Made by a program: the position numbers and the translations under genes
Assembly: GCF_963678975.1 (NCBI RefSeq)
Contig: NC_089275.1
Span: 19,666,220-19,730,219, forward strand
Direction: 5' to 3'
Origin: Dysidea avara
Taxonomy: Eukaryota; Porifera; Demospongiae; Dictyoceratida; Dysideidae
Length of the DNA stretch: 64,000 nt
Shown: positions 2,311-64,000 of the stretch, piece after piece
Layout: the number at the start of each line of letters is the position of its first letter
Numbering within the stretch: position 1 is the stretch's first letter
Notes under the pieces: generated by a model
Databases searched by the model: none
What the model saw: only the letters and a program-made list of their open reading frames with translations
Told to the model about the DNA's origin: nothing

Positions 2311-4174
2311 ATGTTACATTTGCTTAGCATGATGATACCTAGTATTAGCCGCAGAACTAGAGCTTTGACTAAGCTGCAAGCTACTGCCAGAGAACACTCT
2401 AATGCTATCATTGATAATAATTACATAGTGAGATCTCCACATGCAGCAATGCCAATTCCTGAGACTAACTTTTTCAGTCATGTATTCCAGCACTTTCCCA
2501 AGTATGGCAAGAAGACTACTCTAATAGATGGTGTTACAGGAAGGGAATACTCATACAATGAAGTACAGGAGTCAGTGGTTAATATGGCATCTGGTCAAGT
2601 GAGGAGTGGTATGCAGAAGAAAGATGTGTTAGCACTAGTTTCCCCCAACAGCATGGAATTCTGTACAACATTCTTCTCTACACTTTCCATGGGAGGGATT
2701 GTGAGTACTTGTAATCCAAACTACACCTCAGAAGAGTTAGCCTACCAGTTTAAGAATTCAAACTCAAGTACGTAGCCACCATACCATCCTTGTTACCAAC
2801 AATACAAGAAGCAGCCAGTAAGGCAGTTTGTGTAGAGAAGATGATAGTACTGGGTGATGATGGAGGTGTGGGAGAAGGGAAGAATATGATATCCTACCAG
2901 AGTTTAGTGAATGACAGCGGATCAAGATTTGCAAGTGACACAAAACTGGACCCAAAGAAAGACACTGCAATAATCCCATACTCCAGTGGTACTACTGGAT
3001 ATCCTAAAGGAGTAGTGATGAGTCATTACAATGTTACGGCCTGTCTTGTTCAACTAGAACACAGCAGTTTGCTTACAGAATATTACCTTAAAGGAAAGAT
3101 TCTGTCTCTCACTCTCCTATTCCATATAGCTGGTATGCTGGCAAATATGATATGTGGCTTAAAACTTGGTTCAACAATAGTCACCTTACCAAGATTTGAG
3201 CCAGAAAGTTTTTTACAGACAGTATCACACTACAAAACTACCTACAGTAATTTGGTCCCTCCACTGATTGTACTTTCAGCTAGCCACCTGATAGATTGAT
3301 AAATATGATATATCTAGTTTGAAGCACATATCCTATGGCTCAGCTCCTGCTGGTTTCAAAATAGCGGCTGCAGTCAAAGACAGGCTAAATTTGGAACATT
3401 TACAACACGGTTATGGGATGACTGAAATGGGATACACACACTTAACTGCACAAGATGTGTTCAAACCAGAATCTGTAGCGATGACTTTTGCACACAATAT
3501 GTGCAAGATAGTGGACAATGAAACAGGGACAGCTCTTAGTCCCGGCAATCCAGGAGAGTTGGTTGTACAGGGTCCACAGGTGCTTATAGTTTAGAAGCAT
3601 GCTATTATTATTTAGTAAAGGTCTGCACAGTATGTAATAAATGTGTATAATTAGATAATGAGGGGATATCTTAATAATCCTGAAGCAACTAAAGCCACTA
3701 TTAAAGATGGATGGCTCCACACTGGTGACTTTGGTTAGTTCTGCACACATAATTATTTAGCTATTATAAAGGACACAGGTTATTATGATGAGAATGGTTA
3801 CTTCTACATAACTGATCATGACAGACTGAAGGAGTTGATCAAGGTGAAAGGTTTCCAAGTAGCTCCAGCAGAACTGGAGGCTCTTCTCCTCCAGCATCCA
3901 CATATCTCTGATGTGGCAGTTATGGGTAAGAAGATCACATGATCCAGACGATGTCAGTAGTGTTACTATACAAGGTGTTGATGATCAGAGATCTGGTGAG
4001 CTTCCCCGAGCATTTGTGGTGAGGAGCAGTGATGAGCTGAATGAAGAAGAAGTGGAGGATTTTGTGAAGGGAGAAGCAGTAGAACACATACAGTTAAAAG
4101 GAGGAGTAAAGTTTATCAAAGAAATACCAAAATCACTAAGTGGAAAGATATTACGAAGAATGCTGAAGAACTAG
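2311..4174 (+). pseudogene. 4CL-like acyl-CoA ligase, copy 1, two frameshifts
   Basis: This is an ATP-dependent acyl-CoA synthetase of the 4-coumarate-CoA ligase/luciferase-like ANL group, which adenylates a carboxylic acid and transfers it to CoA. The AMP-binding motif YSSGTTGYPKGV, the GYGMTE motif, GWLHTGDFG and the C-terminal [11 protein letters not shown] lysine motif are all visible. By comparison with the two minus-strand copies the exons are about 2311-3579, 3655-3733, 3779-3925 and 3975-4174, with introns of 75, 45 and 49 bases. The N-terminus is rich in Arg and Ser and could be a mitochondrial presequence; there is no C-terminal SKL. Relative to its paralogs the first exon has a one-base loss near 2767 and a one-base gain near 3298, so as it stands it is broken, unless these are sequencing errors. 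The second half of exon 1 is far more diverged from the paralogs than the rest. Confidence 0.8.
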
Positions 4175-16297: not shown

Positions 16298-19200
16298 TCA
16301 CTTTAGTAGCCTTCGCAATATTTTCCCACTTAGTGATTTTGGTATTTCTTTAATAAAATTTACTCCTCCTTTTAACTGTTTGTGTTCTGCTACTTTTCCC
16401 TTCACAAAATCCTCCACTTCTTGTTCACTCAGCTCATTACTGCTCCTTACCACAAATGCTCGGGGAAGCTCACCAGATCTCTCATCATCAACACCTTGTA
16501 CAATAACACTACTGACATCATCTGGATCATGTGATCCCCTTACCTATAACTGCCACATCAGAGATGTGTGGATGTTGGAGGAGAAGAGCCTCCAGTTCTG
16601 CTGGAGCTACTTGAAAACCTTTCACTTTGATCAACTCCTTCAGTCTGTCAGTTACGTAGAAAAATCCATCCTCATTGTAGTAACCTTAAACAAATAATAT
16701 CCACACACAGCATTAGTGGTATCACTGGAGTATATACACTTGTAGCCATACTAGTGTACATATAATTCCCATTTCAGTCATATATATACACAGTTTGTGA
16801 TATGACCAAAGTAATTATATATGTCCACTAGTATATAGCTGCAAGTGTAGATGACCTCTCTTGTTTCCTTGCATTTTATCTCTATGATCCCTACTATGAT
16901 CCCTACTCAAATGTATTTAATTTTGTTTGCTATAACTTTTTATGTAATAACATACTTCATTACTGGTGAAAGGAAAGAATACCACATCTAAGGTAAGGAT
17001 TTTACCAGACCCATTAGAAAAATTAATTGAGCAATTGAATGTGTACCCTGATGATATTACTGAATGTGAAGGGCTATTCTGCTTCATTATCAACTATGTT
17101 CCACCCATTATACATGGCATTATAACAAAGAAAAGTATGGGAAGTGTCTCTGCAATCATTCCAGTCACTACTGAAATTGAAACTAAACACACTAGGGCTC
17201 AAACGAATATCCAAATATTTGACTATTCGGAACCGAATCGAGTACTCGAAGCTATAATAATGTCTTTGAGTAATCGAAAGTACGTGGGATCCGAATTCTG
17301 TAATTAATAAGTTATCACGTGCTAAGCCATTTGTTTCCTTTGTTCTGCGCTGCGTGACTACACGTGGCAATGGATAGTTCTAGCGACGACTCAGGTGAAG
17401 AAAGAATAGATGACGATGATGAAGAAGAGACTCATGAGACTGGCACCGTTGCCAGTAATTGTTCTCGAGGTAATTCTTCAAGACAACGTCGACCTCGTTC
17501 AGTGGTGTGGAAGTTTTTCAGTGCCTTGCAAGGCAGAAAATCAGTTCAGTGTCAGTTGTGTCCAGTTGGAAATAATGATGGTTTACTTGCATATCACGGA
17601 GGGACATCATTGATGCGTGAACATTTAAAGAGACGCCACTATACTGCGTTTTGTGAAGCGACCACGAATGATTCGAGTGATACTCCATCTACAAGTAAGC
17701 AAACCAGACTAGATAGTTTTACCCGTAGTATTGTATGTTCTCGGACCCATTCAAAGGCTATTACAGACCGTATAACTGGTGTTATCATCAAAGATTTAAG
17801 GCCAATAAATTTCGTAGATGGGGAAGGTTTTCAAAACCTCATGAGCTTTATTGAACCAGGCTATCATTTACCGTCTGCAACTTACTTTACGAAACTGATT
17901 GAGCTCAAGTATGAAGAAGCTGTAGCCAAAGTTCAACAAACTCTTCAAGCAGCTAATTACATATCAATCACTTCTAACATGTGGACCAGCCTTGCCAATG
18001 ATGCTTACATTAGCCTAACTACCCACTTTATTTCTGGTGAGTGGAATATGGAATCAGATTGTTTGGGTACCATGCCAGTATCTGAACGGCACACAGGTGA
18101 TAATATTTCATCATGGATTGAGGAGATACTGGGAAATTTTGGCATAAGTACACAAAAGGTTGTTAGCTTTGTTCATGACAATGGGTCAAATTTTGTTCGT
18201 GCTGGAAAAATATTATCAGAGAAGTTTGGGTGGTCAAGTGAAAGTTGTGCTGGTCATGATTTGCAATTATGTATTAAGGCTGGCCTGGAAGTAAATGAAA
18301 TTCAGCAAGTGGTTAGTGCGGCTCGAAGATTAGTTGAGCATTTCAAGAAGAGTGAACTTGCTAATACTGCTTTGCAGAAGCGTCAGCAACAAATGTCACC
18401 AGACCAAGATGTACTACAGATAGTTCAGGATGTAAAGACAAGATGGAATAGTGTCTATTACATGATTGATCGTCTGTTGAAGTTACGATTGCCAATTAGT
18501 GCAGTTCTAGCTGATAGCACTGTAACCAGATGAGATCACCGTCACCTTGATTTACAACCTTCATCGTGGGATCTTCTAGAACAGCTAAGAGATGTATTGT
18601 ACCCATTTCAGGTAGCCACTACCCACTTAAGCAGTGAATACAATGTTTCAGTTTCAACTATGCTACCAGTTATACACGGGATTATCAATAATATGCAGCC
18701 TGAAAGTGGTAACTCAGCACCAGTTAGAAATTTTAAGAATATTGTTATAAGAGAACTTACTCAACAATGGAACTTGAATGAAATTGATCCAAGTGAACCT
18801 AGCCTTCCATTACTAGCTACCTTTTTGGATCCACGGTTTAAAGATACCAACCTGAAGTTTCTTAACTGCTCACAGAAATCTTTGCTTGAAACATCAGTAA
18901 TTTACCTTATCAACAGCTTTGAGTATGACAGGGACACTACTGCTACTGCAAGTGGCCAAACTAGTTCTCAAACACATGCTTCTGAGCCACATCATTTGTC
19001 TGCCCTAGATATTTTACTTGGGGAAGATGATTCTGCTGAAAATAGTCGAAGTGGTGATCATGTCTCTGAAACAGTTAGGGCTTATTTATCAGCTAACGTT
19101 CGTTCCCGTGAATCTTCTCCTCTACAATGGTGGAAAGTTATTACTTCACATTACAGTTTACTCGTGCCTTTAGTTCAAAAGTATTTCTGTGTTCCAGCTA

Positions 19201-21643
19201 CTTCAACTCCATCAGAGCGCATCTTTTCCTGTGCTGGAATTATAGCTAACCGATTGCGATCAAGTTTAAACCCAGAACACTTGAACATGCTAGTATTCTT
19301 AAACAAAAATTACAAATTATTATAACTGCTCAATGCATAAGTACATGTAATTCTAACTACTGTCACTTATGTTACCTATGTAATGTATCTAAACTGTGTG
19401 TGTTTTAGTCACATTTGACTTACATGCATGTGTGATCAAGATGATTTCAAACAAAACAACTCAAATATTCTTACGTAAGTGGTTGATTCCAGTGAGTCAC
19501 CAACAAAGTTAATTGGTATGCATAAAAATAGAATATTCGGTAGTTTTGATTAAAGGATATTCGAATAGTAAAAATCACTATTCGTTTGAGCCCTAAAACA
19601 CACGCCTCAACTATGGTTTACTGAAAAGCAATGTGGCCATTCCACTTTTCAAGTATGTTCTACCCTTTTATACAGCATTACATATAAACAAAAGTACGAG
19701 AAATACCTCTGCTAGTCATTATACAAAATTATGTACAAGCCAGCTGTACTGAAGTCATCATGTACTATATGCATTACTGTGAATCAACACCTACACGAGA
19801 AAGAAATGGGACACAAAAGAGGACAAAGGTATATCCGTGGTGCATGCACTGTATAGCTGCTGCAGTTGGCAAAAGGCAGCCAAAGTGATGTTGAACAGTG
19901 AAGAAATCAAGCCTGTACATTGTGGAGTTATGCTTGGCTGGAGGGAAGCATCAGTCAGGTAGGCATCAGATAGTTAATTAACAGAAAATTCAGTTAAATA
20001 AGAAATTTATAAACTTGTTGGAAGACTTTAGAATTGCGTTGAAGACATTTTGGCCTTGACAACTGTCATGAAGAAAGAATGAGGCTGGTTTTAAGTGATA
20101 TTTTAGCTCGAAAAGCCCAAATCTACATGATCTCTACCATACAGCACTACCATATTGTATGATATACACAGAACTAGTGTATTATATCAGTGAGTCTTAC
20201 CAATATCTCCTGAGCGTAGCCACCCATCAGCAGTGATGGTGTCAGCAGTAGCCTTGTCATTGTTCAGGTAACCCTTCATTACCTGTGGATACATATCACG
20301 ATAATAAAATGATGAACTATACGGTGCATTGTACTAACCTGTGGACCTTTGAACATCACTTCTCCATCACAATTAGGGCCCAAGGATTCCCCAGTTTCAG
20401 GATTGATAACCTTAACAAAAGTGTTAAGCACTGGAACACCAGACGAACTTGGGTTGTTTACATCATGAGGGCAACACAGTACTATAGGACTGAGCTCGGT
20501 CATACCATAACCTTGTCGCACAACCTTTATACCAAGTCGTTGTTTCACAGCTGTAGCTGTTTCACATCTTAGTGGAGCAGCACCACTAAATATGCTCTGT
20601 ACAGAAGACACATCATAATCATCAACCATTGGGTGTTTAGCCAAAAACACAACGAGTGGGGGTACTAAAAATGTTTCATTTATTTTATAGCTCTGAAGAG
20701 CTTCTAGGAATGATTGCGGCTCAAATTTGGGCAAAATTACATTGGTACTGCCCTGGCACAGCCCAGATGCAAGTAATACTGAAATTCCATAGATATGGAA
20801 AAATGGTACTATGCCAAGAAATCGACAATCTGGATCACTAAGATCGATAAATTGTGGATGACTAAATTGGTTGAGATTAGCCATGACATTGTAATGGGTT
20901 AACATCACTCCCTTGGGTAAGCCGGTGGTGCCACTGGAGTATGGAAGTACTGCTATATCATTTTTGTAGTCCAGTTTTATGTCACTTGGAAATCTTGATC
21001 CACTGTCATTCACTAAACTCTGGTAGGATATCATATTCTTCTCTTCTCCCACACCTCCATCATCACCCAGTACTATCATCTTCTCTACACAACCTGCCTT
21101 ACTGGCTGCTTCTTGTATTGTTGGTAACAAGGATGGTATGGTGGCTACGTACTTTGAGTTTGAGTTCTTAAACTGATAAGCTAACTCTTCTGAGGTATAG
21201 CTTGGATTACAAGTACTCACAATCCCTCCCACAGCAAGTGTAGAGAAGAATGTTGTACAGAATTCCACACTGTTGAGGGAAACTAGTGCTAACACATCTC
21301 CCTTCTGCATACCACTCCTCACTAGACCAGATGCCATATTAACCACTGACTCCTGTACTTCATTGTAAGAGTACTCCCTTCCTGTAACACCATCTATTAG
21401 AGCAGTCTTCTTGCCATACTTGGGAAAGTGCTGGAATACATAACTGTAGAGGTTGATCTCAGGAATCGAAATGTCGTCTTCATACGGACACTTCACAATG
21501 AAATCTTTACTGATGGTTGATGTGTTATACATATAAGCACATGATGGCTGATGACTGAAAATTGTAGGGAAGAAACGTCTACCAGTATTTCGCCAAGCAT
21601 GATGACATAGTGATGCAAAAAGTCTAGTCACCTCTTGCTGCAT
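16298..21643 (-). CDS. 4CL-like acyl-CoA ligase, copy 2 (intact, with hAT in intron 2)
   Basis: An ANL-superfamily acyl-CoA ligase of about 574 residues. I place exons at 21643-20339, 20282-20201, 16684-16544 and 16494-16298. All borders are GT-AG and all phases agree with copy 3. Visible motifs are [12 protein letters not shown] (ATP/AMP binding), [32 protein letters not shown] and [14 protein letters not shown], which holds the catalytic lysine region. The length fits the family (about 540-580). The N-terminus ([12 protein letters not shown], then RNTGRRFF) is basic and amphipathic, which suggests mitochondrial import; there is no peroxisomal SKL. Intron 2 is 3.5 kb against about 135 bases in copy 3, because it carries a hAT transposon (17193-19595) plus about 1.1 kb of other sequence. 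The substrate cannot be told from sequence; medium-chain or aromatic acids are possible. Confidence 0.85.
17193..19595 (+). mobile_element. hAT transposon, near-complete, 8-bp target duplication
   Basis: The ends TAGGGCTCAAACGAATA and TATTCGTTTGAGCCCTA are perfect inverted repeats. The flanking octamer AAACACAC occurs exactly on both sides (17185-17192 and 19596-19603). The 2403-bp element holds one transposase gene in its centre. Exact ends and duplication, with only one defect in the gene, point to a recent insertion. It sits inside intron 2 of ligase copy 2, opposite in strand to that gene. Confidence 0.9.
17364..19325 (+). pseudogene. hAT transposase (ZBED type), one in-frame stop
   Basis: The frame encodes a hAT-family DDE transposase of about 653 codons. 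An N-terminal BED zinc finger spans about residues 45-95 (VVWKFFSAL, then CQLC and a HLKRRH pair). The RNase-H-like core includes [12 protein letters not shown] and [10 protein letters not shown]. The C-terminal hAT dimerisation domain reads [12 protein letters not shown], then [15 protein letters not shown] and [22 protein letters not shown] single TGA at 18531-18533 interrupts an otherwise open frame, since the same frame continues through 18534-19325. The function would be cut-and-paste transposition; as sequenced it makes only the first 389 residues. Confidence 0.85.
19596..20200. other. Remaining intron 2 sequence of ligase copy 2
   Basis: This is the intron sequence between the hAT element and exon 2, together with about 0.5 kb on the other side (16685-17184). 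None of it is matched in the short intron of copy 3. I see no domain or inverted repeat in it. Confidence 0.45.
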
Positions 21644-32198: not shown

Positions 32199-34148
32199 TC
32201 ACTTTAGTAGCCTACGCAATATCTTCCCACTTGGTGATTTTGGTATTTCTTTGATAAACTTTACTCCTCCTTTTAACTGTTTGTGTTCTGCTACTTGTCC
32301 CTTCACAAAATCCTCCACTTCTTGTTCACTCAGCTCACCACTGCTCCTCACCACAAATGCTCGGGGAAGCTCACCAGATCTCTCATCATCAACACCTTGT
32401 ACAGTAACACTATTGACATCATCTGGATCATGTGATCCCCTTACCTATAACTGCCACATCAGAGATGTGTGGATGTTGGAGGAGAATAGCCTCCAGTTCT
32501 GCTGGAGCTACTTGGAAACCTTTCACTTTGATCAACTCCTTCAGTCTGTCAGTTATGTATACAAAGCCATCCTCATCATAGTAACCTTAAACAAAACTTC
32601 AATAATATCCACCAACAGGTACATGCATCGTGCAGCATACAGCATAATTATGTAGCCACACATCTATTGCAAAACAGTAACTGACACTTATAGAATTAGG
32701 GTGTAAAATGTGAGTCTTACCAATATCTCCTGAGTGTAACCATCCATCAGCAGTGACGGTGTCAGCAGTAGCCTTGTCATTGTTCAGGTAACCCTTCATT
32801 ACCTGCAAAGTAAATGATTACACAATCTAATGTTAAATGTACAGTGTTTCGTACAAACCTGTGGACCTTTGAACAACAATTCTCCATCACAGTTTGGACC
32901 CAAGGCTTCACCAGTTTCAGGATTTATAGCTTTTACAAAAGTGTTGAGGAGTGGAACACCAGATGAACTTGGATTCACTATGTCACGAGGACAACACAGT
33001 GCTACAGGACTGAGCTCAGTCATACCAAATCCTTGCCGCACAACCTTTATACCAAATCGCTGCTTCACTGCTGTAACTGTTTCACCTCCCAGTGGAGCAG
33101 CACCACTAAATATGCTCTGAACAGAAGACACATCATAATTATCAACCATAGGGTGTTTAGCTAGAAATACAGCAAGTGGTGGAACTAGGAATGCTTCATT
33201 TATTTTATAGTTTTGAAGAGTTTCTAGAAACAATTGCGGCTCAAATTTGGGCAAAATCACATTGGTACTTCCCTGATACAGCCCAGTTGCAAGTAACACT
33301 ACCATTCCATAGATATGGAAAAATGGTAGAATGCCAAGAAATCGACAATCTGGATCAGAGAAATCAACAAATTGTGGATGACTAAGTTGGTTGACGTTAG
33401 CCGTGACATTGTAATGGGTCAACATCACTCCCTTGGGTAAGCCGGTAGTACCACTGGAGTATGGAAGTATTGCTGTATCATTTTTGTAGTCCAGTTGGAC
33501 ATTAAGTGGAAATCTTGATCCACTGTCGTTCACTAAACTCTGGTAGGATATCATATTCTTCCCTTCTCCCACACCTCCATCATCACCCAGTACTATCACC
33601 TTCTCTACACAACCTGCCTTACTGGCTGCTTCTTGTACTGTTGGTAACAAGGATGGTATGGTGGCTACGTACTTTGAGTTTGAGTTCTTAAACTGGTAGG
33701 CTAACTCTTCTGAGGTGTAGTTTGGATTACAAGTACTCATGATCCCTCCCATGGCAAGTGTAGAGAAGAACGTTGTACAGAATTCCACACTGTTGGGGGA
33801 AACTAGTGCTAACACATCTCCCTTCTGCATACCACTCCTCACTAGACCAGATGCCATATTAACCACTGACTCCTGTACTTCATTGTATGAGTACTCCCTT
33901 CCTGTAACACCATCTATTAGAGCAGATTTCTTGCCATACTTGGGAAAGTGCTGGAATACATGACTGTAAAAATTGGTCTCAGGAATCACCGTGTCTCCAT
34001 ATGGACACTTTACAATGAAATCTTTACTAATGGTTGATGCAGAAGCACATAATAACTGACGATTAACAATTGAAGGAAAGAATCGTCTACCAGCAGTACG
34101 CCAAGCCTGTCGTAGAGATACAGAAAGCCTTGTCACCTCGCACTGCAT
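32199..34148 (-). CDS. 4CL-like acyl-CoA ligase, copy 3 (intact)
   Basis: An ANL-superfamily acyl-CoA ligase of 569 residues. Exons are 34148-32859, 32802-32721, 32585-32445 and 32395-32199, joined by introns of 56, 135 and 49 bases, with phases 0, 1 and 1. The motifs are [51 protein letters not shown] and [14 protein letters not shown]. The basic N-terminus, with [10 protein letters not shown], looks like a mitochondrial presequence. The first half of the protein is almost identical to copies 1 and 2; the whole protein is close to copy 2. It is the cleanest copy and serves as the reference for judging the others. The substrate is not deducible. Confidence 0.88.
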
Positions 34149-37715: not shown

Positions 37716-39099
37716 CACACAGATCACATAGTGTGTATGTGTATAAAATAATTATGATAAATCAGAAGCCATACTATCGCTGACCACAGCATGTTGTGGT
37801 TGGATATGTCAAAGCTGTATAGTACAAAGTACATTCAATAGTAAGGAAACAATACACTGGTGTTTACTAACTCCGATAATATTAGCTGATCACTTAACAG
37901 CTACTGTACATGATGACTACCTTGATATACATGTTTAGTACTGTGTAATAACAAGCACCAGTAACAACTCTTATTATCATGTGAGCTATCCATAAATGGA
38001 TTTATAAAAAGTAAACAAACTAGTGTAAAACAATTAAAACATGGGAATAGAGATCACTGAAAAAAGTAAAGAAACAAGAGTAAAACAAGCCAGCATGTTA
38101 AACACAAAGAGATCTCTATTTGGACTCATATAAACATCTATACAGAAGCATTTCTCAGTACTTATTTGCCCCTGATTTATGGAGAAACTACTTAGTTTCT
38201 ACCAACAACATTGTTGCTCTGGTATGAACTTAATATACTGTGGTTAAATACAGGTAGGGTTTCCAAATGAATGTGTTAACATTAGGGATGAGCCTATTTG
38301 CTTCTTTTCTTTCACCTATTTTTCTTTCCAGCAATTCTTTTTTTCTTACCTATTTTGCTCAATATTTTGCTCAAAATTTCTGTTTTGCTGAGCATCAATA
38401 AAAATTAATTGCAGTATCACTATCTCAAGTTTACAAGCATGTGTGATTGTTTTCGTTCATAGTGACTGCTCTATTAGAGTATCTCGATCTTTAGTCGCCA
38501 TTCCTATTAGTATATGTTGCTCAAATACTATGTGTGACTGTTCTATTAGAGTATTTCGACCTTTTCCATACAAACTGTGCTAATTTAAGTTTCCATTCCT
38601 TGATGACTATTTTTCCAATTTCCCACCTATTTTCCAGCATTTTGCTCTTTGCTTTTACCAACATATTTTTCCAAAAATATTGCCGTAATTATAGTATTTT
38701 AGATTTTCCATTTAAATAGCGTTTTGTTGTTGCTGTTTTTATCTGCTTTACCAGTTAGGCACTGCAAAAGCAAGAGGAATTAGTAGCAAGCAGCGATGGT
38801 ACAGGTAGGGCATGATATTCCAAATCAAGAGGTTTAGGTTGTTGGCTCGGTTGTCATTTTTTTTTCATTCCCATGTATAATTTAGGCCGGGAAAACTTGA
38901 TTACTTGTTTCTCATCCCTGCTCGCATCACTTTTTTCCCTACCGCCTCAAATTACATCAAGTTGTTGCTGTTGATGATCATGTGCGCACGTATTTTGATG
39001 CTGAGAAGGCTGGCCATCATTTCACAGTACAGAAAACATATCTTGCAGTTCAGCAAAGGCTGTAAAATGTAAGTATTAGGCTTTAGCTAACCTTTACAG
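37716..39099. other. Intergenic with module copies
   Basis: It holds the second copy of the 70-base direct repeat (38034-38104) and two CTCTAATAGAG modules (38461-38563). A possible AGGGATGAG inverted pair (38285 and about 38913) could bound another element, but the arms are only nine bases. No gene is recognised. Confidence 0.4.
38461..38563 (-). repeat. Two CTCTAATAGAG modules
   Basis: Two minus-orientation copies 75 bases apart, the first complete (GTGACTGCTCTATTAGAG, then TATCTCGATCTT) and the second with two changes. Confidence 0.7.
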
Positions 39100-39309
39100 C
39101 AAGAGTCCATAATAAGAGGAGAGTGTCTAACTTCAGTATACTCCATCAAAGATGAGCCCGGTAAGTACAGCGAGTCTACATGGCTTCAACTAAAGACGCG
39201 ATTATTAGTGCTAAACGTACTGCACAGGGTTTCATATTCTGTTAGCGCACGCATCAAATCAGCGCGTAACGTTAATTGTTTTATGTGTCACGTGGTGTGG
39301 CAGTTGGAA

Positions 39310-40696
39310 ATGGCGTCAAGCTCGTGTGAAGCAAATCAACCCACGACACCGACTTCAATCGATCGTCCACGAAGAACTAAGCGAAGAATTGTGGAACCAA
39401 AGACTCGTCGTGCTGTAACGGCACCCAAAGTCGCTCAGAAGAAAAATCCCTCAAAGAAACACGCGGTCAAGACGAAACAGGATTCAAAACAGGCCGACCA
39501 GCTGGCCGTGACTGAAGCATCTAGTTCAACTGAACCTGCAGCAAAAAGACGAAAGACTAAATTAAACAAGAAAGAAAGAGATGATTTGCTTTCTTTATTG
39601 GATTCTGTTGACGTGTCGATGCTGAGAAAGGAAGTATGCATGAAATTGAATGAGCAGTTTATTCCAGAGTATTTGAAAGAAATATCTAATGCACTCTGTG
39701 CTAATGAACAGCCTCTTGCAGAAATAATTGCTACACATCGTCATTACTTCTCCAGTCTATATGAGAAATGTCAAAAAGGCCCAGAACCATTCTTATATTT
39801 TCAGTTGAAATGGCATGAACACTGTAGTGCTTTCATTTTAAGCAGCAAATATTCTTTGTGTGACATCAATTTGGAGGAAAGCAGCTGTCACTAACTTAGT
39901 GAGACAAGGCTTACATGGTTGAAGTTCTGTGAAGATGGTGGTATTCCAGTTCCTGAGACTAATCCAATTATGATCACAGTTTCTTCTGCTATATACCACT
40001 TTTTACTTGACTTTATCACAAATTCTCAAAATAGCACCACTACCAACAACTGTGAAGAGGATGGCGATGACGTGTACTATCGCTTTGGTGGCAGTGCAAT
40101 ATCAGATATGTTGCACCTCCAGTACAAGCACATTAGAACATGCAAAGATGAACAGAGAGACCTTGTGTCCCAGGAAATTTCAATAATACAGGCTATGAAT
40201 TTGAAGGACAAAACCGTGATTCCTGATTACCTTAAATACCGCGATCGTGGTTATATGTATTTTCCTGATCCAGCTTTTCTGCCTTTTCTACGTGACATTG
40301 ATGCATCATTAAAGGATGTTGTCAGTATTGATGGATTTCAACAAGAGGGGGATAACTTAGTAAAGGTTAGAGTATTCTCTGTGTATGTATTTCTAAACTA
40401 TTGCTCCCCTACAGGTTGCACACGAGAGGATACTACATGATAAAACACGATTATGTGAGATGTTCCGAGAGATATTAGCCCTTAAGTTACCATCTGACAT
40501 CACAACCTACTGTAAAGATGCTATTGACAATGTATTTAATACATTTGTTAGAAAAGTGTGCAACACACGAATACAGGAATTTTTGTCTGCAATGAAACAA
40601 CAATTTGCAACTAAAAAAGGGCTAGCATCAACAGTGGATGTCAATTTGAGAACTACACTTTTAGCACATCACGCTAAATTAGAAACAAAGCTGTGA
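39310..40696 (+). CDS. Unidentified accessory gene of the 39.1-kb transposon, one in-frame stop
   Basis: I do not recognise this family. The chosen ATG (39310, MASSSCEANQ) follows other possible in-frame starts. Residues about 20-90 are very basic (TKRRIVEPKTRR, then KRRKTKLNKKERDD), like a nuclear or DNA-binding tail. After this comes a helix-rich region (LLSLLDSVDVSMLRKEV, HRHYFSSLYEKC). A TAA at 39892-39894 lies inside the frame, which then stays open from LSETRLTWLKFCEDGG through to a 49-base GT-AG intron (40366-40414) and the last exon (40415-40696). The full frame would be about 446 codons. Either the gene is broken by one nonsense codon or it is read through. Its place beside the transposase suggests a role in transposition or its control, which is inference. 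Confidence 0.6.
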
Positions 40697-40821
40697 ACAA
40701 ATAAATAAAATGCCACTCTGAACTTCTTTAATGATAGTCTGACTAAACACAGAATTTCAATGCATTTTTAAATTGAATTAGAATCATGGTATGTGTACAT
40801 AATTTTATTGAACTTTGTGGC

Positions 40822-43800
40822 CTAACGTTTATGATGTTGGTAGCTTTTCCTCTGCAAGGGAGTCTCAATAAAATTCAACTTCTCGTCCTTGTAGCCTGTA
40901 CCACTGTGATGGGAAGCAGCACACTGCTTGACGAGGTGTGCAGCTCGAGCAGTTGTATAGTTTACAGCATCAAGTTTTCCCCCTGCTGTGAATTTATATT
41001 GACTAAACAGGCTTTCCACTGCTGACCCGGACAATCGCAGAGGTGACACAAAATATGTCGGGTAAGTCTTCAGGAACCACTGACAGAAAGCTTTAAAGCC
41101 ATACACATCAATACGTAGGAGATCCCATGCTGAAAAGGTAAAGATTAAACAATATAAAATATGTCAATTATACTCACTTTGCCATGACAGAAATGATTTC
41201 TGTGTTGATGCAGTATGTGGGTACTTCGGGTCTGCAAAATGAGTAACAACAATTCTAGTGTGTGTGTGTGTGCCCATACCTTTATCCAATATTGAGTTTA
41301 ACCACCCTGAAAAGTACTCAAAACCCTTATTGATGTTCTTCATTGTATCACAGTCCATACTTCTGATACAATCATGTGACAAAAATCCTTGTTCAAACAG
41401 CAAATTGCAAGCTTTCAAGTAAGCCAAAGTCTCAGATACTTCAGGGGCATCATTTGGTGGAGGGGTCTGATTCACATACCAGTAGAGTTCACCGAGCACT
41501 TGCTCTTGCTATGTATTAAATAAGCACACAAAATATTTGTATTGAACATGATTGTTTGCATTTATACAAACATGCCTAACTGAACAAAATGAATTATAAC
41601 TGTCATGTTCTAACAGGTGTCACATAAAACAGAACAACCACAGCTATACATCTATGTCAAATCAACAGATGAACAAAGTCACTAAGAGAGGGAACATGAA
41701 GAGATCAATATGTTATTGTGCAAACAGATAGCTGTTTTACGTATTTGAGATTATTATAGATTAATTTCAGTACCTGCATGATCTTAGCTGGTAATACATT
41801 CAATTTTGTCCATGAGTCACGTAAACAGTATGCTTCCCTTAATCGTGGCACCATTCTTGCTTGATTCTTGCTTACCCGAATCAGTTCACGCTTATACTGG
41901 TCAGTAATGGTTTTCCAACCAAATTCAACTCCATTTACTTGTTTAAATTGCTTTGTGCCACCAACTTTTGAGGAAAACAGTGCATTTATCATATTTTTCA
42001 GCTATGGAAAGAGAACTGACCATAAACAATATAACACTTCAAATTACATACCTGGTGAGAAGGGCAGATCAACCAAAATATTTTATTGGGCGGATTGAAT
42101 GGATTTATTATCCAAGGTTCAACCTTAAACTTGTCTTCTTGAGTACTGGTATCCTTTACCGAGTAGGCACCATGGCAGCCATGACTGGCTTTAATGACAG
42201 TAGCATTCGCAGATCCCCCATCACACACCAACAGGCTTGTTTTCAAATTGTGGTACTGAAAGAGTTTGATTGTTTCAAAAATACAAGCCAACACAAATTT
42301 GCCTTCCATTGAAGCTGAGCATGTAAAATAGGGACCTACGATATCATAATTGCTTGTCAGGTCCCTCCACAGAAATTGCAGTATGTAAGACGTTTGATGG
42401 ACTGTTGGATCTTGAAGGATTTTATAAATGTCATTCAGTGAGGACAGGTCCTTTTGCGTCATGGCCAATCCCATTAGTTGATGGTTCCGGGAATTCCACA
42501 TCAACTGACATGCCACCTTCACCTCGTCAAATATGATGACTCCATCTGCTTGTGGCTCTTGTTTCCCATTTGTACGACACTCTTCTTTGAATGCAATGTA
42601 TCGAGCAACCTGATCAATGATACAAACATTATTGGCACCTGGTGAATGCAAAAAAGCTCCCGTGTATGCTTGCATTGTGGATTTCGATGGTAGCTTCAGA
42701 ATTCCAAAACTTTGTAATGCCTTGTATGCAGCAGGACTACGTGTGTACACAGCCAATGCTAAAAAAAAAAGGTTGTGAACAACAAAAGATTAAATTTTCA
42801 ACCCACCCATACGTATCGTGATCATACTCCACCGGTTGCCGCGACCATTGCTCAATTCTGTATCACTAAAATAATATTATGTAAGATGCACAAAATCTGT
42901 TACCATTCTTAGCTTGATCCTGAGAGAAGTCCTTCTTCTGCCGTTCTTTGTCAGTAAACCAAATGGTTTTCATCAGACTACCAACACCATGTTGGTCTCC
43001 TTCTTGAAAAAGTTTTTCCAATTCTTCATCCTGTACTGCATCCATAACAACACTCATCTCTTCATTCTGCTCATCGTTTAAAACTACCTCACTCTCTTCA
43101 AACCTGTTTAGCTTCCGTATACTGCTTGACCTTTCGTATTGTGCCAACTGCTTGCGTTTCTGTTGGCTTGCTGGCGACATGTACTGTAATCGTGCTCGGG
43201 ATGATGGCTGTTGTCGCTTGATTTTCCTGCCAGGACTTTCTGCAAGGGTTCTTCTCTTTTGCAAGTTTAAATAATGAATCAAACCTTTACAGGCTGAACA
43301 TTTCACTTCACTTGCTTCCTTCTCCACAACAGTTACATTTGCTGCTGGAACAAACAAGAGTTTACAATTCACAGAATCAACCCGTGAAAAAGGGTAGCTG
43401 CTCTGACGTACACTTTTGATATGAAACCGAATTGCCTGATAGTATTCTCTCTCATAGTAATCAAAATCAATTCCAGGACAAAACTTATGCTTCGACTTGT
43501 TGCCTAAAATACTACACAATTCAAATACATCATCAATAGATTCCAGCTGCCCTTCTTTCCATAACCTCATCAAAACATAGATGCTGTAGCTCTTGTATTG
43601 CACTGTAATCTGGACACGGGAAGTCATTCCATGTGGAGGATGGCTAAAAAGACTCTTTTGGAAGATTTTCAAAATCGGAACACTCTTGTCCCGTCCATCA
43701 AATGCTAAAATGAAAGCAAGTTCAGGAAAATGGCCAGAGACATTGTCAACAATGTTCTGTAGATACTGCTGTTTTTCTAGCGGCGTAGTTGAACTTGCTG

Positions 43801-44212
43801 GCTGGTTCAATAGCTCACATGAAGTATAACTGTCTCCCAAGGCTTGTTCCTCAGAGCCTTCAACATGCGTGTTTGGTCGAAGCGTTATCTCACATGCAGC
43901 ATCACTGTCGTGTGTCCTACTGGATGACGCTGTATCACACTCGATGTCTTCGAGGAGAGATTCACTGACGGTAGCATCGATGTGCATCTCCAACTGCTCT
44001 TCAGCTGCAATCACTGACTGGCAGCGTGACAGGGGTTCCGTTTGCTCAGTAGACTTCTTCGAGACCATCCCGTGGCAATCGCTGCTCTCGTCAAAACATT
44101 CGCCAAACAGCCAACACGGCGGTAAAGGTCTTCTATGAACGTTATCCTCCATCAGTACCGACTCAAGGACGTCATTGTCAGTTAATTGAATCCACAATCG
44201 AACAATATTCAT
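40822..44212 (-). CDS. P/THAP9-like transposase, seven exons, open
   Basis: I place exons at 44212-42904, 42857-42807, 42758-42052, 42001-41774, 41508-41280, 41231-41178 and 41129-40822. All have GT-AG borders and matching phases, giving 961 residues. The core reads ELSNGRGNRWSMITIRMALA, then a SPAAYKAL and LPSKSTMQAYTG segment, then GVIIFDEVKV (likely first catalytic Asp), LVCDGGSANATVIKA (second), and ICPSHQLKNMINALFSSK. The last exon has SPLRLSGSAVESLFSQYKFT and GGKLDAVNYTTARAA, like the late RNase-H region of P/THAP9 proteins. The first exon encodes an acidic, Ser-rich N-terminus with only a CSAC pair and no evident THAP zinc finger. The reaction would be cut-and-paste transposition of the surrounding element. 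Confidence 0.75.
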
Positions 44213-44954
44213 TCACGTGACTCCCAGTCCATGCGGCTGGTAGGCGGTACCAGCTGTCTCGCATTCACGCGTGTTGATATGAAATGTTTAACACTATTAA
44301 AAATTACGCAAATATACATAGATATGCGGAGGCACTACCCGGGCTCATTTTTGATGGAGTAACTGAAGTTAGACACTCTCCTCTTATTATGGACTCTTGT
44401 TTACAGTGACAGATAACCTACTGTACCAGTCGTTTGAAGTATTTCCTTTAAGGTAGGCGGGGGTAACTTCGTGAAGGGGGTAACTTCGTGAATCTTAACT
44501 TTGATCGGCTGTTACTCCTCAATGGCTTAACCGAATGATTTGAAATTTGCTGTGAAGATACGCTAGTATATAGCGATTAATTTGCATCCAAGCACCAGTG
44601 TCTAGCTTTTCTGAGTTTTGCAAAATCATTAGTTTTTCAAAAACATGTAACACGATTTTTACTTAAAAACGTAATAGGCATACCAAAACCTACTACTAAT
44701 CACTTCTATAAGGTAGTGTTGTTTTAGTTCTAAGGAACTAGAACTAAATCTAGTTTTAGTACAGCAATTTAATTCTAGTTCTAGTACACTAGAACTAAAC
44801 TAAAATTGTGATCTATTTTAGTTCTAAAACTAAAATAAAATTCTTTCAATTTTTGATTCAAAAACTAGAACTAAACCAAAACCATTAAAACTTTTAGCTC
44901 AAGAACTAGAACTAACTGAAAGGTTTCTCAAGCAATCCTACATAAAAAGGTATT

Positions 44955-45310
44955 GTGCACTATATAAACCACTTAACACTTTTCTTTAAAGATGGTGATG
45001 CCTGCAAATGCTACTATAAAACATTGTTATTCAGCATTAATTCTGCTGATTTAGGTTATTTAAGCATTCTATATAGAGCTTTTGTTCATTTGTGCACAAG
45101 GGCAAGTGGAAGTTGTGCTGAACCAGGTGGAAGGCCTAAGTCAAGTGGAGTGTGGAACCACTTCAGGCATGATAAGATCAAGGACAAAAGTGTGTGTACT
45201 GTGAAAAGTACTGATGGTTTGATTTGTGGTATATAAAGAATTTAAAGGACAATATTCTATAAACTTGAAGAAGCATTTGAAGACATGCCATACTGATGCT
45301 TATAAACATT
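44955..45310 (+). pseudogene. Relic of a hAT BED zinc-finger exon
   Basis: The translation shows SSGVWNHFRHDKIKDKSVC, then, in a shifted frame, INLKKHLKTCHTDAYKHF. Together these carry the aromatic, Cys-pair and His-pair positions of a BED finger. A stop and a frame change lie between the two halves near 45234. No dimerisation domain follows. Confidence 0.6.
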
Positions 45311-45361
45311 TTGAAGCAGCTGAAATTGAAAAGACAAAGGGAGAGGTTCTTCTAGCCATTT

Positions 45362-45597
45362 GAAACAGTCCTCCTTGCCAATACGTAGTTTAGGGTCTAA
45401 ATTGTACAACCCTAATAACTGAAACAGTCCTCCTTGCCAATACGTAGTTTAGGATCTAAATTGTACAACCCTAATAACTGAAACAGCCCTCCTTGCTAAT
45501 ATGTAGTTTAGGATCTAAATTGTACAACCCTAATAACTGAAACAGTCCTCCTTGCCAATACGTAGTTTAGGATCTAAATTGTACAACCCTAATAACA
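45362..45597. repeat. 59-bp tandem repeat, four copies
   Basis: Units beginning GAAACAGTCCTCCTTGCCAA start at 45362, 45421, 45480 and 45539. The third has three substitutions; the others differ at one base or none. They lie within the hAT element. Confidence 0.9.
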
Positions 45598-45975
45598 ATA
45601 AACATAAGGCTATTATACATTTCATCTTGAAATCTGTATAGGTGCTAACAATGTACCACTGAATTTAGTAGATAACAGCAAATTCCGTGTATTAATTGAA
45701 GAATTGGATTCTCGGTACAGTTTGCCTCATTGATATAAAATGGGAAATAAAATTGAAAAATCTATCAAAACACCAAATCTAAAGTTTCTGGAAGTCTAGG
45801 GGGTGCTACCAATGTTAGTATTTGTGAAGATATCTAACACTAAAACTAACACTAACTAAAATGAAACTAAATACTAACTAAAATTACAGAAATACGGGGT
45901 ACTAGAACTAAAACTAACTAAAACTGTGGTGGAATTTGGGTACTAGAACTAAAACTAACTAAAACTGCAGTGGAC

Positions 45976-47046: not shown

Positions 47047-47675
47047 TGAAAAATGACCTCCCGCTCGCACAAGAATCCCAAATTTTGTGGATGAGTAACA
47101 ACAGCCATTTTTCTGCCTTCCATCACTTAAAGAGGGAATACTCCCTTGTAGCAAGTCACGGGGAAAAAAAGCCTTCGCTACGCGAAAGCTTTGGAGGGGA
47201 GCAGTCTGGCCTTTCAACAATATAGTCTATATCGTACAGTATGACAGTACGCTACATAAACACTCACTACGACGCCGAATCCTTGGATGAAAAGTCTTGC
47301 CAACCAAAGGTGAGGTCAAGGTGTCTGGGAGTGGCCGGATCGATTTTTAGCGCAGGCGTTAAATTTATAGTCATTAGCGCGGGCCCAATTGGCGCACGAG
47401 ACAAGCCCTTTTGGTTATAATACACGTAAACACGTTACATTGTAGCTATTGTTTGATTTTTACCTTTTCAGTATGAATTGATGACCGAACACAACAAGCT
47501 GATTTGTACTGTAAATACCTGATAATCCGCGTTTTTAAATACAGTAGCTAGCCTCAGTACTGCCGGTGAAAAGTCATTGGAGTTGTTAGTTGTTGCACTT
47601 CAATTATTTTTGCGAGTTTTTGTGGCGGAAACAACCTCATTTTGGCGAAGCCGGCAAGACCTGTTCAGTTCTATA
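47047..47675. promoter_or_regulatory. Presumed upstream region of the pseudokinase gene
   Basis: This 0.6 kb separates the nested elements from the kinase-like gene. No TATA box is obvious by eye. An open frame continues upstream of the chosen ATG without conserved features, so the start is not certain. Confidence 0.3.
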
Positions 47676-48689
47676 ATGGAACTCAAGTCTGCTGATTTGT
47701 CGCTGATCAACGAACCCCAGACAATGGTAGCTGCTACGCCTCTTAATAAAAACTTACGTCTACAAGAAACTTTTGGAAGAGTTTACGCTGTTAAGCACTC
47801 AGAAACTATCTGTGCCGCTAAAGAATTCTGTACAACAAGAACCTTAACCAGACAAGTAGTGGAACAAATTTTAAGGAGCTACAGCAAATTACGTCATCCT
47901 AACGTCATACAGTTTCTAGGTGTATTTTACAATCAATCCAGCAAGGGTTTGAGGCTGCCAGTAATAGTTATGGAGATGATGGCAGACAGCCTCACTTCAC
48001 TAATAGACAAACATCAGACAATTCCAGTAAAGTTCTCTATTATACATGATGTCTCCCTTGGTTTATGCTACTTCCACAGTCATGACCCTCCCATAATCCA
48101 TGGTGAACTGTTTCCCCATAAAGTCTTGTTGATAGCACAGCATGTGGCCAAGATTAGTTTTGGAGTGACCGGCAAGTTGAGAGATAGCCAAAACAGAATT
48201 TCTGTCGTAACACCAGCAAACTTGGAGTTTATGCCACCAGAAGTATTGGCTAATAATTTTGTTTACAGGCCTTCCACAGACATTTTCTCATTTGCTGGAA
48301 TAGTTCTGTACACCGTCAACCAGCAGTAGCCCACTCCATCTGCTCTAAAAATAAAGTTTGATTCTGGTACCAATAAAACAATATTGTTGTCAGAGCGTGA
48401 ACAACGTCAAGCACATTTGGACAAAATGAGAGAAGAATTTAAAGCCTTGAGGTTACTTGCTGAAGAGTGTTTAGATAATGATCCTACTGTGAGACCAAAC
48501 ATAGCGACTATTTGTAGAAGAATTGCAAAAAGTAAGGATGACTTTATGAAAGAGTCGCATTATGCAAAAGACGTTACAATTATTGAATTTTATGAACAAT
48601 TTGAGGATATGAGAATTACAGCCAAGCAATTAAAAGTTGAAAATGAATTTTTAATCCATGAAATTGAACAGCTGCAGATACGACAGTTG

Positions 48690-53487: not shown

Positions 53488-54947
53488 CAGAGGCGTAGCT
53501 AAGGGGGGGGGGGGGGGGGGGGCAAGGGGGGGCATTTGCCCCCCCATCACTAAATGATGTTTTTAAAACCTTCGTCACAAGTTTACCAGTATTAAACTGA
53601 CACGCAAATGACTGTAAATTATGTACACTACTACGCGGTATCACCACTGCAGGGGTTGCTAGTGCATGCGCACGCACAACATTCAACTCGCTCGTGAATT
53701 CATCAAACGAAAATATTAGAGACATACTTCTATATTTAGCCTAGTCTCGTGCCCAGCCGGGCTCGCGCTAATGCGCAAACACCGTCTGGTGACAATGCTC
53801 GAGTTTCTTGGGCCCGGAAGTGCGATCCAGCCAAAATATTGGCTGGCCAATCAGAATCGAGGAGTTGCATAATCGTTTTAAAACAGTGAAAAACCATTCG
53901 AAAATGGGTAGGAATAAAGTAAAACTCAGAATATGAAATTTACTAGATGCGATCTCTTCATTCATTGTATTAGTAGAGGACGCGTTTCATTTCTGGTTAA
54001 ACGTCGAGTCACGATTCATAAGGTGAGATCGGAAAAACAACTTGACAACAAACATCTTGGACAACCTAGGTGAGTAACTTCTGATAAAATGGCTTTAAAT
54101 AGTCTGCTTTTTCGTCTACTTCCAATACATTCATGCGATTATGCAACTCGTCGATTCTGATTGGCCAGCCAATATTTTGGCTGGATCGCACTTCCGGGCC
54201 CAAGAAACTCGAGCATTGTCACCAGACGGTGTTTGCGCATTAGCGCGAGCCCGGCTGGGCACGAGACTATATTTAGCCTAGATTACTCGCGTGATAGAAC
54301 ATTTTTGAATCTAAAAAGAGTGACCCGCTTCTCCGCAGCAGGAGTCACAACTCACAAGTGACAAAGGAGACCAGATGACGCTATGAACCTGCTGCCTACG
54401 AGGTGATAAAGTGTTAGCTAAATAAATGTACCAAGTTTATTTTATCGAATCGATCACACTGGACCTTTGTACGTACGGCAGTGCAGTCTGTTTTTACTTT
54501 GTCAGTCAGTCAGTCAGGTGGATCAGTCAAGCTTACAAGTTCTGCTAGCAAGACAGGTGGGATTTGGTGCAATACATGGCATTTGAATTTCGCCGAGTGA
54601 AGTGAGTGAATACGTCATCCTGTCAGCAGTGTGCTAGGACTGCAGCACAGGCTGTGGCTAACGTAAAGTAACTTGTATTTGCACTAAAGTATTAGCTCTA
54701 CCGGACTGGATGAATTTGTTGGAGTACAGTTGTGGCACGTGCGATGATGCTCGACGAATATAGCTACCTCGATTGGAAGCATTCAGTACTGAAATAGTTA
54801 CGTAGCTAGTTATTTAAGCTGTAATAATACAACACCGTATGTTGGCTAGCCCCCCCATTGGGTCATTAGCCTTTTTTTTGCAATCATGAATGATTTTGAG
54901 TGTTTCGTGGGGTCATGCCTGCCTCTCCATCACCTTCTGGCTAGAAG
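53488..54947. mobile_element. hAT MITE copy A (CAGAGGCGTAGCTA), right tip lost
   Basis: It is nearly identical to copy B at 55482-56387 but is interrupted by a foldback element at 53742. The left octamer GCTAGAAG (53480-53487) recurs at 54940-54947, directly after CACCTTCTG. The last 16 bases present in copy B are missing, probably deleted between the two GCTAG repeats (one in the tip, one in the duplication). A long G tract lies just inside the left end. Confidence 0.75.
53742..54269. mobile_element. Mutator-like foldback MITE with 9-bp duplication
   Basis: Arms of at least 125 bases, starting TAGTCTCGTGCCCAGCCGGG, are inverted with very few differences. TATTTAGCC is duplicated exactly (53733-53741 and 54270-54278). 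Copy B of the host element reads TATTTAGCCTAGATTACTCG without interruption. A 9-bp duplication with long arms fits Mutator-like elements. No gene is inside. Confidence 0.85.
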
Positions 54948-55481
54948 CAACTGCAGTTTCAAGATAGTCCAGATTGCCAGATGACTTCCTAATTCAATTG
55001 TGCCATTTTCCCTTTAAAATGTATGGGGATCCCTGGAGAAAAAATGTACCTTTTTTCAGGTTTTAAGCACTGTGCATGCCAAAGTAGCTAATTCCAACCC
55101 AACAAACTATATGTTTCTGAGTTCGGCAATCAATACTCTATCTATTGAGCATATAAAAAGCCCATTTTTCCAAAATTTAAAAATCAGACTGGAATGTCTA
55201 CAGTTATAGCTACCGGTCATGGTATAGGGTCAAAATAAAACCTTTTGACGATATTTTGTACATTATTTTTTGGAAACTTAATACAAGTTTCCTTAATTCT
55301 AATTTGGTATATGATTACTGTGCAAGGTTGCAATAATATGCATAGTTAAGGAACTTGTAGTTAAGATATAAATGCCCAACATTATTCTTACCCCAACACA
55401 AAAGTAGGTTAGCTATGTAATTTATCTGCATGACTCTGCAGCGTAAATAACAGAAAGCTGCAGGTGGGTCACACTCAAGCT
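54948..55481. other. Spacer between the two hAT MITE copies
   Basis: No gene or repeat is recognised. Confidence 0.4.
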
Positions 55482-56387
55482 CAGAGGCGTAGCTAAGGGG
55501 GGGCATTTGCCCCCCCATCACTAAATGATTTTTTTTTTAAACCTTCGTCACAAGTTTACCAGTATTAAACTGACACGCAAATGACTGTAAATTATGTACA
55601 CTACTACGCGGTATCACCAGGGGTTGCTAGTGAATGCGTACACACAACATTCAACTCGCTCGTGAATCCATCGAACGAAAATATTAGAGACATACTTCTA
55701 TATTTAGCCTAGATTACTCGCGTGATAGAACATTTTTGAATCTAAAGAGTGACCCGCTTCTCCGCAGCAGGAGTCACAACTCACAAGTGACAAAAGAGAC
55801 CAAATGACGCTACGAACCTACTGCCTACGAGATGATAAAGTGTTAGCTAAATAAATGTACCAAGTTTATTTTATCGAGTCGATCACACTGGACCTTTGTA
55901 CGTACGGCAGTGCAGTCTGTTTTTACTTTGTCAGTCAGTCAGTCAGGTGGATCAGTCAAGCTTACAAGTTCTGCTAGCAAGACAGGTGGGATTTGGTGCA
56001 ATACATGGCATTTGAATTTTGCCGAGTGAGGTGAGTGAATACGTAATCCTGTCAGCAGTGTGCTAGGACTGCAGCACAGGCTGTGGCTAACGTAAAGTAA
56101 CCTGTATTTGCACTAAAGTATTAGCTCTACGGGACTGTGGATGAATTTGTTGGAGTACAGTTGTGGCACGTGCGATGATGCTCGACGAATATAGCTACCT
56201 CGATTGGAAGCATGCAGTCAGTACTGAAATAGTTACGTAGCTAGTTATTTCAGCTGTAATAATACAACACCGTATGTTGGCTAGCCCACCATTGGGTCAT
56301 TAGCCTTTTTTGCAATCATGAATGATTTTGAGTGTTTCGTGAGGGCATGCCTGCCCCTCCATCACCTTCTGGCTAGCTACGCCCCTG
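55482..56387. mobile_element. hAT MITE copy B, complete, exact 8-bp duplication
   Basis: The ends CAGAGGCGTAGCTA and TAGCTACGCCCCTG are inverted. CTCAAGCT flanks both sides exactly (55474-55481 and 56388-56395). The interior (GTCAGTCAGTCAGTCAGG and a long unique part) matches copy A closely. It is the reference for the foldback insertion in copy A. Confidence 0.85.
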
Positions 56388-63029: not shown

Positions 63030-64000
63030 ATGTCTACTTGTTTACCAATTAATGCTGATATTGCAAGCTTCTATTATGATCGTCAGCCACGAGGTCGACC
63101 ACTACTGCGACGTTCCGCAGAGCCGCGGTCAGATAACGGTGACTCGGATTTGCACGTTTTGAAAGTAACACCTCTTATAAATAATAAACTACGACAAGGA
63201 ACATTCGGAAGAATTTACGCTGTTGAGTATTCAGAAACTATCTGTGCTGCTAAAGAATTTCGTACAACAGGAGGTGCCTTATCCAGACAAACAGCGGAAC
63301 AAATTTTAAGGAATTGCATCAAATTACGTCATCCTAATGTCATACAATTCCTAGGTGTATTTTACGATGAGAACGATCAATCTAGTACGAGGTTACCAGT
63401 AATGGTTATGGAGATGATGGCAGACAGTCTCACTTCACTAATAGACAAACACCAGAAAATTCCATCTAATATAAAGTTCTCTATCATACATGATGTCTCT
63501 CTTGGTTTATGCTATTTCCACAGTCATGACCCTCCCATAATCCATGGTGAACTGTTTCCCCATAAAGTCTTGTTGACAGCACAGCATGTGGCCAAGATTA
63601 GTTTTGGAGTGATTGGCAAATTGAGAGATAGCCAAAACAGAATTGTCATTGTAACGCCAGCAAACTTAGACTTTATGCCACCAGAAGTTACATTAGCAAA
63701 TAATTTGGTTTACATGCCTTCCACAGATATTTTCTCATTTGCTGGAATAGTTCTGTACACCATCAATCAGCAGTGGCCCACTCCATGTGCTGTTAAAACA
63801 AGGTTTGATCCTAGTACTAACAAGACAGTATTCTTGTCTGAATGTGAGCAACGTCAAGAGTATTTGATCAAAATGGGGGAAGAGTTTAAAACCTTGAGGG
63901 TACTGGTTGAAGAATGTTTAGACAATGATCCTACTGTGAGACCAAACATAGCAACTATTTGTAGAAGAATTGCAGATAGCAAGGATGACTTTATGAAAGA
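63030..64000 (+). CDS. Pseudokinase gene, second copy (runs off the window)
   Basis: The frame opens MSTCLPINADIASFYYDRQP and stays open to the last base, 323 codons without an intron. It is a paralog of the gene at 47676, with long blocks of near identity from KLRQGTFGRIYAV to the end. The glycine loop is intact here (RQGTFGRIYAV) and the beta-3 lysine is kept (ICAAKEF). The catalytic loop is HGELFPHKVLL (no HRD Asp) and the metal loop is SFG, so it too is probably inactive as a kinase. Tryptophan (TGG, 63773-63775) stands where the first copy has a stop. By analogy a coiled coil and kelch repeats should follow beyond the window; that is inference. Confidence 0.8.
   Translation, partial: MSTCLPINADIASFYYDRQPRGRPLLRRSAEPRSDNGDSDLHVLKVTPLINNKLRQGTFGRIYAVEYSETICAAKEFRTTGGALSRQTAEQILRNCIKLRHPNVIQFLGVFYDENDQSSTRLPVMVMEMMADSLTSLIDKHQKIPSNIKFSIIHDVSLGLCYFHSHDPPIIHGELFPHKVLLTAQHVAKISFGVIGKLRDSQNRIVIVTPANLDFMPPEVTLANNLVYMPSTDIFSFAGIVLYTINQQWPTPCAVKTRFDPSTNKTVFLSECEQRQEYLIKMGEEFKTLRVLVEECLDNDPTVRPNIATICRRIADSKDDFMK

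Follow-up and report, generated by a model that had tools for sequence, protein, structure and literature searches.

A probable P-superfamily DNA transposon with a convergent second gene and no detectable THAP finger

Within the window (the whole 64,000-nucleotide stretch of DNA that was analysed) lies a 5.3-kb element at 39100–44399, bounded on both sides by TTTACAG. This 7-bp direct repeat is exact (39093–39099 and 44400–44406) and constitutes the target site duplication. The element carries two convergent genes, a transposase on the minus strand and a companion on the plus strand, with an AATAAA signal shortly 3′ of each stop codon. Its ends read CA...TG and belong to terminal inverted repeats (TIRs) of 62 nt on the left (39100–39161, plus) and 61 nt on the right (44339–44399, minus); the first 38 nt are identical, a one-base gap follows, and 60 of 62 aligned columns agree overall. 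When a 26-mer of the TIR was searched for with up to three mismatches, the only matches within the window were the two element ends, and 100 shuffles gave none. The well-preserved paired ends and the duplication mark 39100–44399 as a DNA transposon. A preliminary description had recorded the duplication as exact, which it is, and had put the inverted ends at about 70 bp; the inverted repeat is real and, at about 62 bp, slightly shorter than that. Possible subterminal inverted repeats at 39203–39216 (plus, 104 nt from the left end) and 44286–44299 (minus, 101 nt from the right end) match at 12 of 14 positions, a weak score that 12 of 300 shuffles also reached with an offset limit and 9 of 60 without one.

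The window was also checked for a second copy of the element, complete or fragmentary, and that possibility was rejected: beyond the self-match and the TIRs, comparison yielded one 29-nt match at 90% identity, which falls partly inside a transposase intron, and matches of 15–21 nt. With tblastn (E up to 1), no match was obtained outside the element, and an Rfam search of the window gave none. Just to the right of the transposon, at 45302–45655, is a tandem repeat with a 59-nt period.

The transposase gene was reconstructed by in-silico splicing, its exons being inferred from the sequence alone. Seven exons join in consistent phases to encode 959 residues without a stop: exon 1 (44212–42904), holding the N-terminal region that lacks a THAP finger, a C305-x2-C308 pair, and a basic stretch; exon 2 (42857–42813); exon 3 (42758–42052), holding the TNP-like_RNaseH_N domain with D529, D631, and the C(2)H motif at residues 683–686; exon 4 (42001–41774); exon 5 (41508–41280); exon 6 (41231–41178); and exon 7 (41129–40822), holding the candidate catalytic E896. 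The AATAAA of this gene is at 40804–40809 (minus). The seven-exon open frame with consistent phases agrees with what had been described before, and the length is corrected from 961 to 959 residues. On this strand the longest open frame spans 448 codons, whereas 500 Markov simulations reached 206 at most. Five of the six introns measure 46–54 nt. Compared with other animals, Amphimedon has markedly smaller introns (PMC4432959, excerpt), and introns of about 50 nt in the element would suit a sponge such as Amphimedon.

The companion frame starts at an ATG at 39310, stays open for 194 codons up to a TAA at 39892–39894, and, past this stop, continues open in phase beyond 40365. The longest open frame on the plus strand has 230 codons, whereas the maximum in 1000 Markov simulations was 168. 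Exon 1 (39310–39857) encodes a basic N-terminus, and its frame continues in phase to the TAA; the 42 nt that follow (39858–39899) can be viewed as a weak intron or as coding sequence with an in-frame TAA. Exon 2 (39900–40365), a 49-nt intron (40366–40414, GTTAGA...CTACAG), and the last exon (40415–40696) complete the gene, which ends at a TGA (40694–40696); two overlapping AATAAA signals (40700–40709) begin four bases later. In each of the three blocks, the proposed frame has the best codon score of the three possible frames (0.08, 0.12, and −0.01, the third being near zero), as measured against a background of stretches assumed to be noncoding and with small training sets made up of the transposase and seven other open reading frames of the window, two of which are unspliced frames of a hAT transposon. 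We take the companion to be real coding sequence.

The 42-nt stretch decides whether this copy encodes two full-length proteins. If it is a true intron, its removal keeps the frame, eliminates the TAA, and gives a companion of 431 amino acids, so that the two-gene element would be intact; we regard this as a serious possibility but not the favored one. The stretch has GT...AG boundaries and a CTAAC before the acceptor, and it is similar in length to the short transposase introns. Its donor matches the consensus at 4 of 6 bases, which is within the element’s range because the other seven donors match at 3 to 6. On the other side, a 4/6 donor accompanies a weak pyrimidine tract (0.56), and the in-frame codon score of 0.03 is coding-like rather than intron-like: it lies nearer to 15-codon windows of the transposase (0.10, SD 0.14) than to 21 intron frames (−0.18, SD 0.09, all at or below −0.06), in a comparison that uses small sets and is partly self-trained, since the training sets included the transposase windows as well as 3 of these intron frames. 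Altogether, 22 frame-keeping GT-AG candidate introns of 36–200 nt would remove the TAA, and 4 of 6 is the highest number of consensus bases that any of their donors matches. With codon usage leaning the same way, we think the TAA somewhat more probably a nonsense codon in this copy. The element had been called intact, and the term holds for the ends, the duplication, and the transposase; for the companion it is doubtful because of the in-frame stop and the weak splice sites. Likewise, the second gene proposed earlier, of about 446 codons, is convergent and coding as claimed, but the TAA at 39892–39894 breaks its frame, and that length would fit only a read-through of the TAA (431 plus 14 plus the stop). 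The intact-copy reading concerns the state of this copy and is compatible with the explanation of the element that we prefer below.

The companion’s N-terminus is as basic as had been noted from inspection (residues 1–90: pI 11.1, net charge +17, including KRRK), and the body is acidic (pI 5.7); the N-terminus appears NLS-like, and the body may be helical. Structure prediction, which the preliminary description had proposed for both proteins, was uninformative: the two single-sequence AlphaFold models had mean pLDDT values of 39.4 and 32.7, too poor for use. Consistent with the earlier impression that the companion belongs to no recognized family, profile searches in Pfam, PHROGs, and NCBIfam returned no significant match, FXR_C1 and POM121 scoring far below their Pfam cut-offs, and the best phmmer match among PDB sequences (chain a-iTHR-201, E 0.036) was taken as chance. 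The companion was also considered as a paralogue of the transposase, and the best blastp alignment (E 0.012, 46 residues, 26% identity) was again taken as chance. Against phages and plasmids, tblastn gave no match; in the viral collection IMG/VR, a scan with the companion open reading frame at 39919–40440 found three stretches that matched the pattern, none of them a relative; and a companion motif pattern had zero occurrences in IMG/VR and zero in GTDB genomes. Because these genome collections cover prokaryotes, phages, plasmids, and viruses, the absence of matches says little about animals.

For the transposase, the sole significant match among 24,736 Pfam models is PF21787 (TNP-like_RNaseH_N), at residues 515–642 (E 2.5e-8, 34.8 bits against a cut-off of 24.6). 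By eye, we picked a candidate catalytic set comprising D529 (in IIFDEV), D631 (in LVCDGG), C683-P-S-H686, and E896 (in SAVESLF). The order D, D, C(2)H, E is that of the P signature as described in an excerpt of PMC8230255, the comparison being with the description rather than with an alignment. In the same excerpt, insertion domains comprise 190–196 residues in DmTNP, THAP9, and Pdre2, and the D-D spacing is 73 in DmTNP and 70 in THAP9; in the transposase, the C(2)H-to-E distance is 213 and the spacing from D529 to D631 is 102. Some 200 residues occupy the expected place of the insertion domain, and they have no Pfam match to the GTP-binding domain.

Pfam scans of the first 446 and last 328 residues, with E up to 10, gave no match to the THAP, GTP-binding, or RNase H C-terminal domains. 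Neither element protein has a THAP profile match or a C-x2-4-C-x35-53-C-x2-H pattern, and the idea that the companion conceals a THAP finger was therefore rejected. The earlier suggestion of a P/THAP9-type transposase devoid of a THAP finger is therefore borne out by the PF21787 match and by the profile and pattern searches. Approximately 440 residues (exons 1 and 2) precede the catalytic part, and in them the C305-x2-C308 pair is followed by a basic stretch (residues 314–366) with 14 K/R and 2 D/E; to judge from these sequence features, the pair and the stretch could bind DNA. Since they could, the companion would not be needed to explain the missing THAP finger. The role of DNA-binding or regulatory partner that had been suggested for the companion gained no support: no DNA-binding family was recognized in it, and the Cys pair and basic stretch of the transposase are themselves candidates for DNA binding. 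Among rejected matches to the transposase, Zn_ribbon_12 scored far below its Pfam cut-off. A phmmer search of PDB chains retrieved no P transposase, its best hit (E 0.86) being taken as chance. Scans of IMG/VR, a viral and not an animal collection, gave no pattern match for the exon-3 open reading frame (41998–42756) and 15 matching stretches for exon 1, none of them a relative; a transposase motif pattern was absent from IMG/VR and from GTDB genomes, collections that likewise are not animal.

The P element is the classic example of a transposon with one gene, in which the THAP finger is fused to the transposase, and its ends are CA...TG. The element described here resembles the Drosophila P element, THAP9, and Pdre2 in its P-type RNase H domain and, as far as the residues picked by eye indicate, in the D-D-[C/D](2)H-E order and a long presumed insertion before E, and it shares with the P element a short exact target duplication and CA...TG ends. 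It differs from them in that no THAP finger was found, the N-terminus of about 440 residues is of another type, and a second, convergent gene is present. An excerpt of PMC7776569 describes the THAP finger for P and THAP9 and gives TIRs of 31 bp in Drosophila P and 13 bp in zebrafish, compared with 62 bp here, and a target duplication of 8 bp in P, compared with 7 bp here. A 7-bp duplication would suit relatives of P: in Galileo, a member of the superfamily, duplications are 7 or 8 bp and 7 in most copies (PMC4168063, excerpt), although the TIRs there are unusually long and the transposase bears a THAP finger (PMC3688188, excerpt).

Other superfamilies offer precedents for a second gene. In PIF/Harbinger, ISL2EU, and Pangu elements, two open reading frames lie between one pair of ends, as they do here; in an excerpt of PMC4482050, the second protein is Myb/SANT in Harbinger and YqaJ in ISL2EU, that of Pangu is assigned no known motif in one place and Myb/SANT in another, and the function of such additional frames is described as still unknown. 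The companion has no Myb/SANT or YqaJ match, and the transposase has a different match. Kolobok elements (KolX, KolobokP, and others) similarly combine a transposase with a separate accessory protein, such as KolX or HNH, and KolobokP carries its second gene downstream, on the opposite strand (PMC9587614, excerpt). Here the companion matches no HNH, helicase, or exonuclease profile. The target duplication of Kolobok is TTAA and not, as in our element, TTTACAG.

The locus, in an animal genome, is probably a P-superfamily DNA transposon that moves by cut and paste and carries a convergent second gene. The best reading is a two-gene, THAP-less P-superfamily variant that parallels the two-gene Harbinger and Kolobok elements. 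In addition to the domain match and the order of the candidate motifs, the C(2)H-to-E distance argues for the P assignment, being near the length of the insertion domains described in the PMC8230255 excerpt. Against this reading stand the wide D-D spacing, the unmatched GTP-binding, C-terminal RNase H, and THAP profiles of P, the lack of a P transposase among the phmmer matches to PDB chains, the single copy seen in the window, and, for the companion, the in-frame stop and the failure to find a relative in the collections searched. For this one copy, the evidence supports the original proposal of two genes within a single pair of ends. In the open-access literature, we found no report of a P element with two proteins, whether by a second reading frame or a second gene, and Repbase-style P family names retrieved only unrelated results there; Repbase itself was outside the scope.

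A bolder proposal, which we judge unlikely, is a deep THAP-less P lineage in which the convergent gene, of a new family, is always present and supplies the essential function (end recognition or regulation) that the THAP finger performs elsewhere. We likewise consider it improbable that, in an element of the P superfamily, the companion plays no role in transposition and was captured from the host or is carried as a passenger. The companion matches no known family in the libraries searched, and its stop codon, next to a transposase that stays open, is what would be expected of an unselected passenger; however, it leaves little unused sequence in its half of the element, it is convergent, and its intron is as short as most of those in the transposase. 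More improbable still is a transposase of another superfamily (Kolobok, Dada, Novosib, or an unnamed one) whose likeness to P comes down to the common RNase H fold, as the atypical D-D spacing, the missing THAP and GTP-binding-domain matches, and a placement by profile and motifs rather than by a transposase tree might suggest, whereas the single significant Pfam match, which exceeds its cut-off, is to the P-type RNase H profile, a candidate C(2)H motif is present, and the 7-bp duplication fits relatives of P.

For a two-gene, THAP-less P variant, a mechanism can be proposed by analogy. The P transposase brings the ends together and uses an RNase H site for both cleavage and joining, while its insertion domain positions GTP (PMC7776569, excerpt). 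The transposase described here would cut at the 62-bp ends and join them to target strands 7 bp apart, with D529, D631, and E896 as putative catalytic residues and, as in P, a presumed insertion domain between C(2)H and E. The companion might be a nuclear accessory protein that works with the transposase or on its control, a more tentative step. In this copy, the companion may end after 194 codons at the TAA, and the copy may thus depend on companion protein from other copies. If the preferred reading is true, a two-gene, THAP-less relative of P would suggest that DNA recognition is replaceable in the superfamily, in agreement with the varied accessory proteins of the Harbinger and Kolobok lineages, and the companion would represent a new accessory protein family. 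Should the companion instead be a passenger, or be missing from sibling copies, we would be dealing with an ordinary P relative.

The Pfam scan of the window’s open reading frames covered 9 of 13. Among the neighbors is a hAT transposase in two open frames at 17364–19325 (plus), the first with zf-BED and a subthreshold DUF659 and the second with Dimer_Tnp_hAT. Two AMP-binding (acyl-CoA-synthetase-like) genes are located at 20279–21643 and 32799–34148 (both minus), and a third, related segment at 2409–4168 showed up through inverted repeats with 87–93% complementarity. To the right of the transposon, a protein-kinase gene (47577–48544, plus) has a diverged second copy at about 63168–63991, with blocks that are 80–93% alike. 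At 53560–56376, segments are repeated 1.4–2.0 kb apart with 95–99% identity, reflecting either a recent duplication or another mobile element, and an inverted pair of 134 nt with 99% identity is found at 53742–54269.
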